A stretch of 38,545 nucleotides of DNA from an uncultured Lachnospiraceae bacterium. Lineage in GTDB: Bacteria > Bacillota > Clostridia > Lachnospirales > Lachnospiraceae. This document shows, piece by piece, positions 33,411 through 38,545 of this stretch; positions within the stretch are counted from its first letter, which is position 1, and each line of letters opens with the position of its first letter. The translations under genes were made by a program, and so were the position numbers. The notes under the pieces were generated by a model, which did no database searches, was not told the DNA's origin, and saw nothing but the letters and a program-made list of their open reading frames with translations. The stretch spans positions 1 to 38,545 of the forward strand of contig CACZJL010000018.1 of the NCBI GenBank assembly GCA_902781505.1. The letters are read 5' to 3'.

Positions 33411-33899
33411 TCATTCCTTCCCGAGCTTCTCCATGAATCCCGTAACACCTTCCGCTACATCATTCCACGTTGCCTTAAAATTCCTTGTGTACCACGGATC
33501 TGCAACATTCCCCGGATGATCAGTGTAATCAAGTAAAAGCGATATCTTCCCTTCCGGATCACCGCCTGCAATTCTCTTCATATCATGCAAATTCTCCGAA
33601 TCCATGCCGATGATATAATCATACTTATCATAATCCGCACGTGTCATTAATCGCGCCCGCTTCTTTTGTACACCAAGCTCATTATCTCTGGTTCCAATCC
33701 CGTGACTTAACAGTTCCTGCATTGCCGGAGGATAAATCGGATTGCCCTTACCTCCCCAGATTTCTTCTGTTGTAGTTGCTGCCGATGCAATCTCAAACTG
33801 GTCTGATATCCCCTTACGGGTCACATAATCTTTCATATAAAACTCCGCAATCGGAGAACGACAAATATTGCCGTGGCAGATGAATAGTATTTTTATCAT
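33411..33899 (-). CDS. Low-molecular-weight protein-tyrosine phosphatase
   Basis: The 162-residue protein has the CX5R active-site loop CHGNICRSP (C8, R14) at the N-terminus and the general acid region ADPWYTRNF near residue 130. Both are diagnostic of the LMW-PTP family. The length is normal. It is the last recognisable chromosomal gene before the mobile element, which lies directly upstream of it, so the element may have replaced its original promoter region. Confidence 0.94.
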   Translation of the reverse strand: MIKILFICHGNICRSPIAEFYMKDYVTRKGISDQFEIASAATTTEEIWGGKGNPIYPPAMQELLSHGIGTRDNELGVQKKRARLMTRADYDKYDYIIGMDSENLHDMKRIAGGDPEGKISLLLDYTDHPGNVADPWYTRNFKATWNDVAEGVTGFMEKLGKE

Positions 33900-34093: not shown

Positions 34094-35296
34094 TTACATG
34101 ACTTTTTGCAGTCGAAAAACCTCTTCTTTTGCATCCTCAAATCCAAGATGAGTATAAGTATTTAAAGTAACACCAATATCACTATGTCCCATTAAATACT
34201 GCAAGGTTTTTGGATTCATACCTGACTTAGCCATATTCGAGCAATAAGTATGTCTGCAAACATGTGGTGTAATCTTCGGCATCTGAATCTTATAGATTTT
34301 ATTGTACTTCTCAACAATGTGTTTGAAATAATGTTCCCAATGCAGGGAATACATAATACTTCCATCCTTATCAAAGTATAAAAATCCACTATGACCATCT
34401 ACCATTGGTTCTACCTTCGGAGGGTTACGCTTCTCAATAATCCTTCGAAAACATTCTTCAATATCCGGAGTCATTGGCAAAACTCTAGTGCCGCTTGTAG
34501 TCTTCGTTTCCTGAATATAATATCCGGTACTGCCCCTCTTTAATAACTGATGATCAATATTAAGCGTGTGATTTTCTAAATCAATATCCGCTAATGTTAA
34601 ACCACAAAACTCTGAAATACGAAGTCCTGTTTTAAAAAGAATATAGATTCCTTCATAGTAATTCGAAAAGTGTTTGTCCTCTTTTACAAACTTTAGGAAT
34701 TTACGTTCTTCTTCACGACTAACGGCTTCTCTTCGAACAGAATCATTTACAATTACATCCACCAGCTGAAAACCAAATGGATTCTTACGAATCAAATCGT
34801 CATCAACCGCCATCTGAAAAGCAGGTCTTACCACACCTCTAATAGTGTGTATACTACTGTAACTTTTTCCTTGCTCCTGCTGCAATTTAATGAGCCACAC
34901 CTTTGCATCAGAGATTCTTACTGTATCAATTCTTTTGGCACCAAAATGGTCTTTTCGCAGTAAATTCAAAACCGTATTATAACCAGCTCGTGTCGTAGGT
35001 CTTACACCTGTCTTAGTCGAAATATATTTTTCTACCAAATCATAGACTGTAAGATTTCCGCCATTGGATATGATATGGTCAAACATATCCGCCTGAATCT
35101 GCTTTTCCATCTCTCTTAAAGAAGGTGTCTTCTTTTTTCCAACGGGCATTCTGTCATTATGGTCAAGTCGCCAACTATAAATAACCTTCTCTTTGCCAAA
35201 TGAATCCAGATACTTGTAACGATATCTCCCATCGCTCATCTGCATTTCGCCATTATGTAATATTCTTCCTCTACTATCTCTCCTTTTTTCGCTCAT
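34094..35296 (-). CDS. int: Tyrosine recombinase (integrase), Tn916 Int type
   Basis: The protein catalyses integration and excision of the element. The 400 residues begin MSEKRRDSRGRIL, very similar to Tn916 Int, with the arm-binding domain (1-75), a SAM-like core-binding domain (85-185) and the catalytic domain. Catalytic residues visible are R226 (KTGLRISE), H345 and R348 (HVCRHTY), H371 (MGHSD) and the nucleophile Y381 (LNTYTHLG). AAAGGAG precedes the ATG by nine bases. The gene follows xis and has its own promoter, with an inverted repeat and three 21-bp repeats between. Confidence 0.96.
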   Translation of the reverse strand: MSEKRRDSRGRILHNGEMQMSDGRYRYKYLDSFGKEKVIYSWRLDHNDRMPVGKKKTPSLREMEKQIQADMFDHIISNGGNLTVYDLVEKYISTKTGVRPTTRAGYNTVLNLLRKDHFGAKRIDTVRISDAKVWLIKLQQEQGKSYSSIHTIRGVVRPAFQMAVDDDLIRKNPFGFQLVDVIVNDSVRREAVSREEERKFLKFVKEDKHFSNYYEGIYILFKTGLRISEFCGLTLADIDLENHTLNIDHQLLKRGSTGYYIQETKTTSGTRVLPMTPDIEECFRRIIEKRNPPKVEPMVDGHSGFLYFDKDGSIMYSLHWEHYFKHIVEKYNKIYKIQMPKITPHVCRHTYCSNMAKSGMNPKTLQYLMGHSDIGVTLNTYTHLGFEDAKEEVFRLQKVM

Positions 35297-35307
35297 ATAT
35301 TTGGTCT

Positions 35308-35370
35308 CCTTTACTATTCTTTATAATTCCTTTACTATTCTTTATAATTCCTTTACTATTCTTTATAATT
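35308..35370. repeat. Three exact tandem copies of a 21-bp repeat
   Basis: CCTTTACTATTCTTTATAATT is repeated three times without change at 35308-35328, 35329-35349 and 35350-35370. It lies in the leader between the int promoter and the int ribosome binding site; the last minus-strand copy supplies part of AAAGGAG. The 21-bp period equals two helical turns, which suits protein binding, for example by Xis or Int, or may reflect slippage. Confidence 0.9.
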
Positions 35371-35375
35371 AAGAA

Positions 35376-35423
35376 GACCATCTCGGCAAATTCTATTTTA
35401 TCACGAGATGGTCATTCTGTCGT
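35376..35423 (-). promoter_or_regulatory. int promoter with overlapping inverted repeat
   Basis: On the minus strand ACGACA (35418-35423), a 17-bp spacer and TAAAAT (35395-35400) with an extended TGA before it form a promoter for int. GACCATCTCG (35376-35385) and CGAGATGGTC (35404-35413) are perfect 10-bp arms on both sides of the -10 box, well placed for a repressor or Xis site. Confidence 0.55.
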
Positions 35424-35463
35424 GGCAAAATGAACACTATTATCCGTCCCTTGCCTACGTGTT

Positions 35464-35679
35464 TTAAACTCCAGTAACTTTATCTAAATACTCTTCAAAT
35501 AGTTTTCTTTTAAATCTAATATGGCTCCCAATCTCTAACACAAAATCTTCTCCCTGATTTTCATAAGCAATCTGGCGTAATCGCTTCTCTCCTATACCAT
35601 AGTATTCAGCTGCTTCCTGAATGCTCAAAGAGTATTTTCTCCAGAGGGGAACATTTACCTTCATATCCTTTTCACTCAT
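35464..35679 (-). CDS. xis: Excisionase, Tn916 Xis type
   Basis: The 71-residue DNA-binding protein resembles Tn916 Xis. VPLWRKYSLSIQEAAEYYGIGEKRLRQIA forms a winged helix-turn-helix (split here across residues 10-38), and GSHIRFKRKLFEEYLDKV closes the domain. Xis bends DNA at the element ends and directs Int to excision. AAGGAGGG lies seven bases upstream and contains the end of the dnaC-like gene, so the two are coupled. Confidence 0.93.
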   Translation of the reverse strand: MSEKDMKVNVPLWRKYSLSIQEAAEYYGIGEKRLRQIAYENQGEDFVLEIGSHIRFKRKLFEEYLDKVTGV

Positions 35680-35682
35680 ACG

Positions 35683-36507
35683 TTATCCCTCCTTCCCAAA
35701 GATTTCCTTTAAGATTTCATTCTTATGTCTTCCGGATGCTACTCTCTTACTCTCTACAGTCTGCATATGAATCGGTCTGCACATATCAAGAATCCTGTCT
35801 GAGATTCGTGCAAACATAAGCTCCTGCTCTTTTACATTCCTTATGTCTGCCAAATCTAAATTGGTCGTAACAATCAAGGGCTTTCCAGAAGTCCATCTCC
35901 GGTTAATCACATTGCCAATATTCTGCAAAGCAAACTCAGAATTCTGCTCTGCTCCTAAATCATCGATGACAAGAAGTGAGTATGAATCCAACGACTTCAC
36001 ATATTCCTCTGCATCGAATTTTGAGATGTTGGATATTCTGGCAAAGTCTGTCATAAGAACTTTCTTCTCCTGCTCTAATAAAGCATTGGCTATGGCAGCC
36101 GCCATATAGGTCTTTCCTGAGCCCAAATTGCCCCATAGAAGCAGTCCAATATGTTCCTGCCGAACCTTCTCCCAATTTTCTACATAACACTTTGCCATCG
36201 CCATTTGAGGCACGGTGCCATCATCGTTTTCAAAAGTCCAATCCCACATGCGACGGTCTGTAAAACAAATCCCCTTATTTCGTTCCACAAGTTCTATATG
36301 CTCTCGCCTGGCATGTTCTTCACGCTCCCTTTTGATTTTTTCCTCACGGCATTTACATGTGCTTGGGCGTTTATCAGATTTAAAGAACTCGTTGTATTCA
36401 GGAAGCCTGATTTCTAATGGTCCACCACAAAGGGAACAATGTAATAAGCCATCTTCTGCAACATAGCTATCCGGTATATTTTCTCTATTCCAAATTTCAT
36501 TCATCAT
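35683..36507 (-). CDS. DnaC/IstB-like ATPase, helicase loader
   Basis: The 274-residue protein has possible zinc ligands C24, C27, C51 and C53 at the N-terminus, Walker A GNLGSGKT at 126-133 and Walker B LLVIDDLGAE near 175. This is the pattern of DnaC/DnaI-type loaders that place the replicative helicase on an origin. It overlaps the initiator gene stop by one base (TAATG). A transposase-helper IstB role is unlikely because no IstA is adjacent. Together with RepA it suggests autonomous replication of the excised element. Confidence 0.9.
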   Translation of the reverse strand: MMNEIWNRENIPDSYVAEDGLLHCSLCGGPLEIRLPEYNEFFKSDKRPSTCKCREEKIKREREEHARREHIELVERNKGICFTDRRMWDWTFENDDGTVPQMAMAKCYVENWEKVRQEHIGLLLWGNLGSGKTYMAAAIANALLEQEKKVLMTDFARISNISKFDAEEYVKSLDSYSLLVIDDLGAEQNSEFALQNIGNVINRRWTSGKPLIVTTNLDLADIRNVKEQELMFARISDRILDMCRPIHMQTVESKRVASGRHKNEILKEIFGKEG

Positions 36508-36992
36508 TAAAACGTGTCCTCCCCATATTTATAAGATGTTATTGATTCTTGTTTATTATTGTTATTAGTGGCTGATTTTCCGCCCCATGTAGAGGCAGTT
36601 TTCTGACCCTTATACGGTCGGTTTTCTGTCCCTACTACAGGCGATTTTCCGACTATACTTGAGGAAGGAACTTTGACATAAATCATATTTGCACGACCTT
36701 TTCTCATGCGCTTCTTCTCGATCAACCCTGCATCCACAAGTTCCCTCATATTCTCCTTTATCGTACTCAGACTCTTGCCCATTTCCTCAGCCAAATCTTC
36801 AAGTTTATAGTTAATATAAACTCTTCCGAACTCATCCACCTTTCCATTTGTGATGGATAGATTGGAACGATTTAAAAGCTTGGAATATAAAATTGTGGCA
36901 GTGCTGCTAAGCTCACCTCCGTGAAGATCATTTGGAATCACAGAATAATTGGTTAGCTTTGTGCCACGGGTTAAAAACTGTAATGCTTCCAT
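36507..36992 (-). CDS. Replication initiator, RepA N-terminal family
   Basis: The 161-residue protein matches the RepA_N winged-helix domain: SSTATILYSKLLNRSNLS, GKVDEFGRVYINYKLEDLAEEMG, SLSTIKENMRELVDAGLIEKKR and NMIYVKVP. The C-terminal 50 residues are hydrophilic and low in complexity. RepA_N proteins start replication of many Firmicutes plasmids and integrative elements by binding iterons. Start and stop both overlap neighbours by one base. The iteron-like arrays at 37711-38200 are natural candidates for its binding sites. Confidence 0.85.
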   Translation of the reverse strand: MEALQFLTRGTKLTNYSVIPNDLHGGELSSTATILYSKLLNRSNLSITNGKVDEFGRVYINYKLEDLAEEMGKSLSTIKENMRELVDAGLIEKKRMRKGRANMIYVKVPSSSIVGKSPVVGTENRPYKGQKTASTWGGKSATNNNNKQESITSYKYGEDTF

Positions 36993-37675
36993 TAATCTTC
37001 ACCTCCAAATTTTTTCTGTATTTCCTTCAACTCATCCGAGACTCGAAATACCTCAAGTTCCATCTTCCGATATTCGTTTATTGGTATCAGCCCAAGCTTC
37101 ATCTGGAAGAAGATTTTTACCCGCTCTATAAAAGGTAGGCCCTTATCCATGAAATCTCGCTGTTCCAACTGCTGAAGTCTCTTATCGCAGTTATTCGCAA
37201 GTGCCATAACTTTTTCACTAATAACAGTAATAGTCTTCGCAGAATCTTTGCGAAGCTCCAGATTTTCTTTATATGCTCTTGCCTCTTGTTTCTGGCTAAG
37301 TTCTTTAAGTTGGTAATAGTTATCCATCCAATCTGATGTTTCCCCTTTTTGAAAATCATAAAGAACTTCCAATTCTTCCATCTCCTGCCCTCGATAATCA
37401 ATCTTTGAAAAATGTATCACCGAATCTATAGAAGCCTCGAGGATATTCAGTTTTTCCAGATCTATGAAGTATCTTTTTCCATCGCTGCTAATCTTTATCA
37501 AACTGTCTCTGGCATATCGAAAGGCACTCATCTTAGCTCTGGCAGTTGACTCCGGTTTTCCGCACTCATCCATTAAATATTTCTTTGCGCTATCGAAGCT
37601 GTACTCTCCGTCTCCTGCTAAGCAATATAATTCCCAATGATTTCCAAGATGCTTTAATGTTTCTGCAATATTCAT
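36992..37675 (-). CDS. Unknown protein of the element's replication operon
   Basis: I do not recognise this 227-residue protein. It is hydrophilic and mainly helical, with no signal peptide or membrane segment. The first 75 residues look like a small globular, possibly DNA-binding domain (TARAKMSAFRYARDSLIKIS), and the middle (about 115-175) has coiled-coil character. AGGAGG stands upstream of the ATG, and the stop overlaps the RepA start by one base. As first gene of a replication operon behind an iteron-like region it may regulate or assist initiation; that is inference. Confidence 0.75.
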   Translation of the reverse strand: MNIAETLKHLGNHWELYCLAGDGEYSFDSAKKYLMDECGKPESTARAKMSAFRYARDSLIKISSDGKRYFIDLEKLNILEASIDSVIHFSKIDYRGQEMEELEVLYDFQKGETSDWMDNYYQLKELSQKQEARAYKENLELRKDSAKTITVISEKVMALANNCDKRLQQLEQRDFMDKGLPFIERVKIFFQMKLGLIPINEYRKMELEVFRVSDELKEIQKKFGGED

Positions 37676-37678
37676 TAA

Positions 37679-37732
37679 TTAAACCTCCTGTTCTTTCCGC
37701 TCATAATTCATTTGGTTCAGCAAGTGACTCAT
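37679..37732 (-). CDS. Possible 17-codon leader peptide
   Basis: An ATG within the first 70-bp repeat opens MSHLLNQMNYERKEQEV and stops three bases before the 227-residue gene. The ribosome binding site of that gene lies inside its last codons, an arrangement typical of coupled leader peptides. No ribosome binding site is seen for the leader itself. A similar peptide, MVDFSTHMYVERKN, opens at the same place in the third repeat. The evidence is weak. Confidence 0.2.
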   Translation of the reverse strand: MSHLLNQMNYERKEQEV

Positions 37733-37999
37733 TACTAGAAAAATGAAGAATTCTTTTCAATGCTTCTCTTAAATCCTTCACATTACATTTGGGGTGGTTT
37801 TCCGCCCATTACTAAATCAAAAGCAAAATTTCTCAATTTTTTCTTTCAACATACATATGGGTTGAAAAATCAACCATTACTAAACCGAGAAGAATTTTTC
37901 TTTATCCCTTCATCTACTATTTGGAACGAGTCAGAACCGATTACTAAAAAATTCTTATTTCCACCCGTTCAAAATACATATGGGACACATATGATCTGA
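37711..37999. repeat. Four-copy degenerate 64-77-bp repeat array upstream of the replication operon
   Basis: Four copies of T(T/A)TGG followed exactly 20 bases later by ATTACTA occur: 37711/37731, 37788/37808, 37856/37876 and 37920/37940. A fifth T(A)TGG at 37979 lacks the second element. Each copy is preceded by a (C/G)TTCA-like end and an ACAT(A/T)TGG or ATTCATTTGG run. The 15 bases between the two elements differ, but form hairpins in copies 2 and 3. The spacing of copies (77, 68, 64) is not a multiple of three, so it is not coding. It is probably an iteron or copy-control region. Confidence 0.75.
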
Positions 38000-38018
38000 A
38001 TCTGCAGAAATTTTGCGC

Positions 38019-38048
38019 AAAAAAGAAGACAGGTGTTTTCCTGTCTTC
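38019..38048 (-). terminator. Rho-independent terminator 1 of a tandem pair
   Basis: GAAGACAGG (38025-38033) and CCTGTCTTC (38040-38048) form a perfect 9-bp stem with a six-base loop. On the minus strand six T residues follow. It stops minus-strand transcription coming from the right before it reaches the replication operon. Confidence 0.88.
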
Positions 38049-38080
38049 AATCTGCTCTCTTCTTTAATTTTTTTGTAACC

Positions 38081-38112
38081 AAAAAGGAACCTGGTGCATT
38101 TACCAAGTTCCT
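38081..38112 (-). terminator. Rho-independent terminator 2 of a tandem pair
   Basis: On the minus strand AGGAACTTGGT pairs with ACCAGGTTCCT (11 bp with one U-G) around a six-base loop, followed by five T residues. It is upstream of terminator 1 on the same strand. Confidence 0.8.
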
Positions 38113-38141
38113 CGTTCCAACTAATCTGATTCTACTGTAGC

Positions 38142-38239
38142 AGACCCCAATTTCAAAAAAAAGGGCCATTAGGGACCATTTAGGGCCATTAAGGACCATT
38201 GGGAACCAAGTTTTATACAAACAATAAACACTGGGGTCT
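38142..38239. repeat. 8-bp inverted repeat enclosing the iterons
   Basis: AGACCCCA (38142-38149) and TGGGGTCT (38232-38239) are perfectly complementary and lie 82 bp apart on either side of the 10-bp iteron array. They could close a large cruciform or stem-loop. Confidence 0.5.
38161..38200. repeat. 10-bp tandem iterons
   Basis: Four consecutive 10-bp units end in CCATT: aagggccatt, agggaccatt, tagggccatt and aaggaccatt (38161-38200). A degenerate fifth, gggaacca, follows. On the minus strand the consensus is AATGGYCCYT. A strict period near one helical turn puts every unit on the same DNA face, as in initiator-binding iterons. Confidence 0.85.
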
Positions 38240-38254
38240 TAGGGAGCGCCCTAA
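38239..38254. repeat. Short palindrome next to the iterons
   Basis: TTAGGG and CCCTAA (38239-38244, 38249-38254) form a perfect 6-bp inverted repeat around AGCG. It starts on the last base of the enclosing inverted repeat. Confidence 0.5.
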
Positions 38255-38260
38255 CAAGTA

Positions 38261-38279
38261 TATTTTGTCAGACAAAATA
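38261..38279. promoter_or_regulatory. 19-bp dyad, probable operator
   Basis: TATTTTGTC and GACAAAATA are perfect 9-bp arms around a single A. Outside it, CAAG and CTTG continue the symmetry imperfectly. On the minus strand a TATACT lies beside it. It looks like the site of a dimeric repressor, for instance a Cro/CI-type regulator of the element, whose gene is not in the window. Confidence 0.6.
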
Positions 38280-38307
38280 CGTATCTTGCAATAAAAAATA
38301 AAGATAA

Positions 38308-38434
38308 GTGTAACAGGTGTATCAGCTAATGCAGAAGACTCTCAAAGTATTGAAAATACTGATGTTACAGGTGATACAGCAATTTATTAGAAAAAATGAA
38401 ATGAAACACTTATGTTACACCACTCGTTGTAACA
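38308..38434. repeat. TGTTACA/TGTAACA motif cluster
   Basis: A 19-bp element at 38308-38326 (GTGTAACAGGTGTATCAGC) recurs at 38362-38380 (ATGTTACAGGTGATACAGC) with 14 of 19 bases equal. TGTTACA (38413-38419) and TGTAACA (38428-38434) form a 7-bp inverted repeat around eight bases. The cluster suggests a further binding region of the element. Confidence 0.5.
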
Positions 38435-38451
38435 GTTGTAATTTTTAAGGC

Positions 38452-38544
38452 TCAATCACAAATTTTATGTGATGGCTGATTCCTGACATACTTCTTCCGG
38501 CTCATATCCATGATCTTTAAGAAGAAGTATTCATCATCAGGATA
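38452..38544 (-). CDS. C-terminal end of an unidentified protein (partial)
   Basis: One minus-strand frame is open from the right edge to a TGA at 38452-38454. It encodes 30 residues that begin YPDDEYFFLKIMDMSRKK and end RNQPSHKICD. The composition is protein-like and the other frames are closed, but it is too short to recognise. It would be the next gene of the element; the rest lies outside the window. Confidence 0.45.
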   Translation of the reverse strand, partial: YPDDEYFFLKIMDMSRKKYVRNQPSHKICD

Positions 38545-38545
38545 G

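Follow-up and report, generated by a model that had tools for sequence, protein, structure and literature searches.

Organization of the locus

In the window, by which we mean the whole stretch of 38,545 nucleotides that was analysed, the gene for the 227-aa protein P0088 leads the replication operon of an integrative element (Table 1) and is itself directly preceded by an array of repeats read on the minus strand, the sense of the operon. The first-pass annotation had described four copies in which T(T/A)TGG and ATTACTA lie 20 bases apart, with unit-to-unit steps of 77, 68 and 64. Every one of these values holds: T(T/A)TGG starts at 37711, 37788, 37856 and 37920 and ATTACTA at 37731, 37808, 37876 and 37940, the offset being 20 in four of four copies. 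On the operon strand the copies read TAGTAAT-N15-CCAWAT. The pattern T[TA]TGG-N15-ATTACTA does not occur elsewhere on either strand of the window, and none of 20,000 base shuffles of the 410-nt array region gave two pattern matches. The four copies are joined by a fifth T(T/A)TGG at 37979, part of a further unit of a different kind. The repeats are real, but the unit is about 65 bp and not the ~70 bp proposed, and the inner 15 bases, which do vary in content as claimed, are not random spacer: they fall into recurring kinds that reappear in other genomes.

The array is not a decayed gene because the reading frame changes from unit to unit, and this candidate, which the annotation had listed as a possible refutation, was rejected. 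The longest open stretch is 35 codons on the operon strand and 86 on the other. In some gene calls (P0057 and P0085) the 227-aa protein runs on into the array, but frames nonetheless differ between units, and the 79-aa antisense frame at 37760-37999 also shifts frame from one unit to another.

P0088 had no family match in four libraries, and a plasmid search with the operon returned short integrase matches only. The promoter match upstream of the two hairpins recurs in loci L006, L007 and L020; in the promoter scan the number of matches was no higher than in shuffles. Upstream of this promoter-like match we observed short tandem AGGGCCATT/AGGGACCATT repeats and scattered TGTAACAG/TGTTACA motifs (38162-38210 and 38309-38440). 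The contig ends 0.6 kb past the array, inside a repeat common to three other contig ends: the last ~105 bases (38441-38545) are 98-100% identical to the ends of contigs C32, C9 and C14 of the same genome, and the open frame there resembles the end of a gene, perhaps for a transposase, whose repeated copies interrupted the assembly. At the other end of the operon, three perfect 21-bp repeats, TCCTTTACTATTCTTTATAAT, lie between the Xis-like gene and the integrase (35307-35370) and might be arm-type integrase sites. A low-molecular-weight phosphatase gene beside the integrase in the window (33411-33899), L006, L180, L227 and L231 may mark a common insertion site; other elements adjoin ychF-like or guaA-like genes (labels by sequence look, the window phosphatase excepted).

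Table 1. Features of the array and the operon behind it. Coordinates are those of the window; dialects are named after the contigs of the conjugative elements described below.
Feature	Position	Strand	Remarks
Tn916-type tyrosine integrase, 400 aa	34094..35296	-	
Small Xis-like protein, 71 aa	35464..35679	-	Label from position and sequence look
DnaC-like helicase loader, 274 aa	35683..36507	-	
RepA_N/DnaD-like replication protein, 161 aa	36507..36992	-	
P0088, 227-aa protein	36992..37675	-	N-terminal winged helix and long helix; candidate reader
Unit 1, gene-proximal	37692..37756	-	Span -20..+44 around AGTAAT; weak G336:C19-dialect match, 15.0 bits (background maximum of this dialect 18.7 bits)
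Unit 2	37769..37833	-	G336:C19 dialect, 37.4 bits
Unit 3	37837..37901	-	G336:C19 dialect, 37.4 bits
Unit 4	37901..37965	-	Spacer CGGTTCTGACTCGTT; kind common in arrays; no match among five dialects
Fifth unit	37966..38013	-	TTTCTGCAGAT-N17-CATATG (37977-38010); G103:C15 dialect, 17.0 bits
Terminator-like hairpin with T6	38025..38048	-	Directly upstream of array
Second terminator-like hairpin	38084..38113	-	Upstream of array
Sigma-70-like promoter match TTGAAA-16-TAGAAT	38129..38156	-	Upstream of both hairpins

The box family across genomes

The fixed inner spacing recurs across Lachnospiraceae. Read on the operon strand, the unit of ~65 bp consists of A5T4, TTTAGTAATSRG, a 15-nt gap, CCAWAT and a purine-rich tail. 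In a profile of 88 distinct sites (55 effective sequences, drawn from 825,774 bases on both strands), A5T4 occupies positions -20 to -12, TTTAGTAATSRG positions -3 to 8, CRNCCCAAATG positions 17 to 27 and a TGAAAGGAAAAA-like tail positions 33 to 44, a layout that looks like a promoter or a promoter-overlapping site. Some loci repeat the same sequence (L013 and L181 that of L012, L182 that of L009, L233 that of L011 and L183 that of the window), L231 and L237 are near-identical, and L006 holds the window's element as found in a different genome record; repeated sequences were collapsed or down-weighted in the profile and in the R1 model.

Across the 19 loci scanned first, 58 sites were found, and none scoring 13-19 bits stood isolated. 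In viral contigs used as background DNA (1.4 million bases, chosen for the core pattern) there was no site of at least 20 bits. A phage origin was also considered and dropped: the strict tandem pattern had no match in viral contigs, and a stricter single unit matched one contig, at a locus of the same type as G008:C42 and G698:C20. The tandem pattern occurs in 11 of 397 genomes of the family, against 0 of 397 for the reversed control; one of the pattern's places is a leucine-rich-repeat gene, and G203:C36 was dropped from the pattern matches. A sequence-only model matched 16 of 392 genomes of the order, two of them being weak single matches outside the family, and five of 391 in the class sample, two of these weak; outside the family each sample holds two partial matches, where chance would give about 0.4.

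At each of the nine fetched loci that encode the 227-aa protein, the array stands immediately ahead of its gene, in one to four full copies, and relatives at 44, 39, 34, 31 and 30% identity bear it as well, with at most six copies by profile and seven by eye. Relatives without the spacing, the other outcome that would have spoken against the first-pass annotation, did not turn up; the spacing is kept. Its placing of the repeats before the replication operon of an integrative element is right for the window but too narrow for the family, whose members also head xis/int, recombinase, relaxase and secretion operons. Among integrative elements of several recombinase types, the unit heads replication, xis, integrase or recombinase operons. 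By labels given mostly by sequence look, the units are followed by the winged-helix gene at 16 loci (by inspection), by a Xis-like gene and a recombinase trio at five (L170, L171, L226, L229 and L235), by a large integrase at four (L173, L174, L232 and L234, broken in L234), by an integrase with or without a Xis-like gene at another four (L189, L225, L227 and L228), by a small HTH gene at L172 and, once, by a GG-leader bacteriocin-like peptide (L175). An automatic ORF call puts the following gene on the same strand for 33 of 38 arrays or single units. At L014, L230, L232 and L234 the call took a short antisense frame, and a gene or gene fragment can be seen on the unit's own strand. Elements with the same array differ in the cargo upstream of it, and copies of the unit are gained and lost.

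The window's genome holds five exact sites, four in the array and one before a xis-int operon. Its three one-mismatch sites compare with five control matches; hence no host regulon is seen there, and that reading was dropped.

Several features beside the arrays deserve mention in their own right. At L176:8760-10453 the family's winged-helix gene and a three-unit array precede an apparent large serine recombinase, not a tyrosine integrase. L020/L178 and L025/L177 have a ~90-nt leader between the last unit and the start codon with a GGCA-GACG-TGCC hairpin; a second pairing seems kept between the two loci and might be an additional RNA control. Near-palindromic ACTTTTGGTCCA(T/A)TGGACCAGAAGT hairpins stand at gene ends upstream of arrays in L009, L010, L011, L021, L024 and L246, and a version peculiar to G103:C15 (L262), CTTGTGGTCACNNTGACCACAAG, occurs there four times.

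Predicted conjugative elements spell the box in private dialects

Five contigs (G336:C19, G103:C15, G197:C40, G706:C8 and G713:C17) pair a gene for the winged-helix domain with a relaxase of 594-623 aa. Judged by sequence, they carry five homologous predicted conjugative elements, each with relaxase and secretion genes. They came from a relaxase search of 22 genomes; a separate relaxase search gave distant mobilization proteins. Boxes lead the winged-helix, DUF5688/relaxase and secretion-ATPase operons in all five elements, and three elements have a box before another secretion operon too. Each of five operons in G336:C19 is headed by a single unit, which starts 0-17 bases past the previous stop codon or behind a hairpin.

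The spelling of the box is nearly constant inside each element and different between elements: TTTAGTAATGAGC-TTTTT-CAACCCAAATGTA in G336:C19 (5 sites), TTCTGTAATCACGATTTTCAGGCTCCAAGTA in G706:C8 (6), TTTTGCAACTAGCTTTTTCGAACCCTAAGTA in G197:C40 (4), TTAAAGGGAT..TTGTGACATTCCATAGGTG in G713:C17 (5) and TTTCTGCAGAT-N17-ATATG in G103:C15 (3), where it is constant only in the left box and the right end. The fixed inner spacing is kept within every dialect. All 23 sites lie on the operon strand and none is antisense, by patterns set after the repeats had been seen. Since the proteins behind the boxes are homologous between the five elements (blastp, E<=1e-5), it is homologous operons that carry the different spellings.

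Arrays combine dialects

When matrices from the five elements were applied to the array loci, the sites at 19 of 31 were best matched by two different dialects, a count in which some loci are near copies of one another. The mixture is G336 with G103 in 15 loci (the window included), G336 with G706 in three (L179, L227 and L228) and G706 with G197 in one (L180). The count excludes six matches distant from the arrays (L009 157, L012 2964, L173 4098, L189 6108, L231 11439 and window 18427). The G103 matrix, made from 3 copies, is noisy, its background reaching 18.1 bits where the window's unit scores 17.0, but the pattern itself is clean: TTTCTGCAGAT-N17 is present in 15 of the 31 loci (the window and 14 others) and absent from 1.4 Mb of viral contigs. 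For the kind of unit 4, the five dialects offered no match in a conjugative element. As the repeats of the window match boxes of two conjugative elements, its element likely answers more than one helper.

Four of the five conjugative elements (G336, G197, G706 and, in part, G713) have an oriT-like sequence, GCGGGCGACATAGGAGCACGG...GTAACTTTATGCGTATCCTGTTA, upstream of their first box. It is found on the same strand in 11 array loci, with partial matches in L006, L011 and L180; the match in L257 is also partial. Of 35 GTATCCTG places 15 were aligned, the duplicates L233 and L237 and 18 places lacking context being left out. The end of the sequence resembles the nic regions of MOBP systems. The window's genome contains no oriT-like sequence within two mismatches and no PF03432 (MobA-type) relaxase, and so no helper of the box family is visible in it; in L006, the same element elsewhere, a partial oriT-like match lies 810 nt upstream. 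On the contigs of replication-type arrays, no PF03432 relaxase above the cut-off comes within about 27 kb of the array. In five genomes, the recombinase-trio elements encode a relaxase of 539 aa some 9-15 kb upstream.

A winged-helix protein is the candidate reader

The model of P0088 shows a winged helix (the first 80 residues, block pLDDT 87-93) followed by a long helix, with a mean pLDDT of 78.5 and a pTM of 0.43, and the nearest structures by Foldseek are, weakly, ArsR-type repressors (E 0.05). A 454-aa protein of G336:C19 has the same domain by hhalign (93.7%, E 2e-7), modelled with the same order of helices and strands (block pLDDT 75-84) inside a whole model that is poor (61.0). Each of the five conjugative elements encodes this domain in the gene that follows its first box. 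Across the same 392 genomes, units occur in 16, the domain in 13 and both in 11 (Fisher p 4.6e-16, an optimistic value because unit-bearing loci supplied part of the domain profile). A box of some dialect stands before the domain gene in 12 of the 13 domain genomes, the thirteenth, G613, having a marginal match. The domain is missing in five unit-bearing genomes (G261, G698, G700, G383 and G168) and in G397 and G469, whose unit matches are weak; many islands, that of the window included, encode it and some do not. From these associations we infer that the winged-helix protein reads the boxes, while noting that any element-encoded protein could vary along with the box, not just this one.

Alternative readings of the unit

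The first-pass annotation had suggested that a protein or an RNA structure reads the two ends of the unit. On the sequence evidence a protein, the 227-residue one among the candidates, is the best reading left, and RNA is not supported. If the units were structured 5'-leader RNA controlling translation or termination, one would welcome the facts that a hairpin and T run precedes 24 of the 38 first or single units (by a loose rule), that boxes are always on the gene's strand in the five conjugative elements and that some spacers can pair; column pair 2-25 also covaries above shuffles, on about four sequences, and registers outside the stem reach z of about 3 in one set (26, 32-33 and, in the non-G6 set, 21). 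Against this, stem registers 27 and 28 have no covariation, mean folding z over 19 arrays compared with shuffles is -0.69 on the operon strand and -1.48 on the antisense strand, and Rfam had no match above the gathering score in 35200-38545. A hairpin within the unit was therefore rejected, folding, covariation and per-unit folds giving it no support in the stem registers. With no covarying stem, leader RNA is a very unlikely reading. A spacing that is fixed while no RNA structure is seen agrees with two contacts to double-stranded DNA at a distance of two helical turns.

The layout of the unit suggests a promoter, and the boxes might be core promoters of an alternative holoenzyme, with AGTAATSRG as the -35 element, CCCAAATG as the -10, A5T4 as an upstream element and dedicated sigma factors. 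The boxes and A5T4 do stand at promoter-like distances if transcription starts at the pyrimidine-purine step 33/34, the shortest leaders just fit a Shine-Dalgarno sequence, and the same-strand position of the next gene (33 of 38, by the automatic call above) agrees with this. What argues against it is that every element would need its own sigma factor, and a search of the Sigma70_r4_2 family alone, covering four of the five conjugative elements (all but G706), found no gene over the cut-off on G336:C19, G336:C15, G197:C40 and contigs C18 and C5 of the window's genome, none within 60 kb of the boxes on G103:C15 and G713:C17, and on eight other unit contigs only genes at least 10 kb away. A -10 reading of positions 26-31 was rejected, last or single units scoring barely better than upstream units (3.68 vs 3.36 of 6). 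We consider such promoters improbable, if less so than leader RNA. Origin iterons bound by P0088 as replication initiator, with regulation secondary, would explain why, in the window and its close relatives, the replication module follows the array directly, and we hold them to be about as improbable as leader RNA: boxes also head int, recombinase-trio, relaxase and secretion operons, the copy number goes down to one, the copy-to-copy spacing is not helically phased, and the array is not tied to an initiator or replication gene as in plasmid iterons. The gain and loss of copies and the changing cargo upstream of the same array recall attC- or dif-like sites for cargo exchange, but tandem copies have no cargo gene in between and no symmetric core, and in the conjugative elements boxes head conserved homologous operons, which makes recombination sites the least credible reading of all.

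Discussion

The reading we favour, with a probability of roughly 0.6, is that the boxes are private operon boxes of predicted conjugative elements, likely read by a winged-helix protein, which mobilizable elements have collected into multi-helper arrays. Each repeat of the window would then be a member of an operon-leading box family found in these conjugative elements. The winged-helix protein encoded behind the first box likely binds the box on double-stranded DNA, and binding would switch the operons on rather than off, each version of the box answering its own element's protein. By gathering several versions, mobilizable elements could excise, replicate and transfer with several helpers; the array of the window likely lets its mobile element answer more than one helper before excising and copying itself. 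The transfer nick would presumably fall at the oriT-like sequence that many mobilizable elements have in common with the helpers. The broader proposition, that Lachnospiraceae conjugative elements use private dialects read by their own winged-helix protein and that the arrays of unrelated islands are a receiver for several helpers whose spelling names them, is tentative, and we would put it at somewhat under even odds.

If it were true, the letters of an array would predict which conjugative elements mobilize an island, and sequence could reveal helper-island pairs, which in gut bacteria are usually unknown. The dialects would also supply natural matched protein-site pairs for learning how two boxes, spaced by two helical turns, are recognised by a winged-helix dimer. 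Among the cargo beside the arrays are genes that look AbiE-like and restriction-modification-like by their sequence, and the dialect code may accordingly time the spread of phage defence. In open-licence papers on Lachnospiraceae elements we found no description of the box.

The nearest described case is AcaCD of the IncA/C plasmids, whose activated motif lies upstream of excision and mobilization genes of the unrelated islands SGI1 and MGIVmi1 (PMC4207636). Here too one motif stands before operons of conjugative elements and before excision or replication genes of islands. In that account a single plasmid family uses a single motif, whereas here several conjugative elements have private versions and islands mix them; activation is described there and would be expected here; and the candidate here, a winged-helix protein, is encoded by many islands as well and is thus not a regulator confined to the helper. 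Winged-helix proteins of Gram-positive conjugation include TcpK of pCW3, which binds tandem repeats, and TraN of pIP501, which represses promoters (PMC6540685). The TcpK repeats lie within oriT, whereas the boxes here head operons. Finally, mobilizable elements with an oriT and without a relaxase have been termed iOriT (PMC11389934 and PMC5704250). The recombinase-trio elements differ from these in carrying the 539-aa relaxase, whereas the replication-type arrays, with no PF03432 relaxase over the cut-off close by, are like them, and the 11 array loci share their predicted oriT-like sequence with four conjugative elements.
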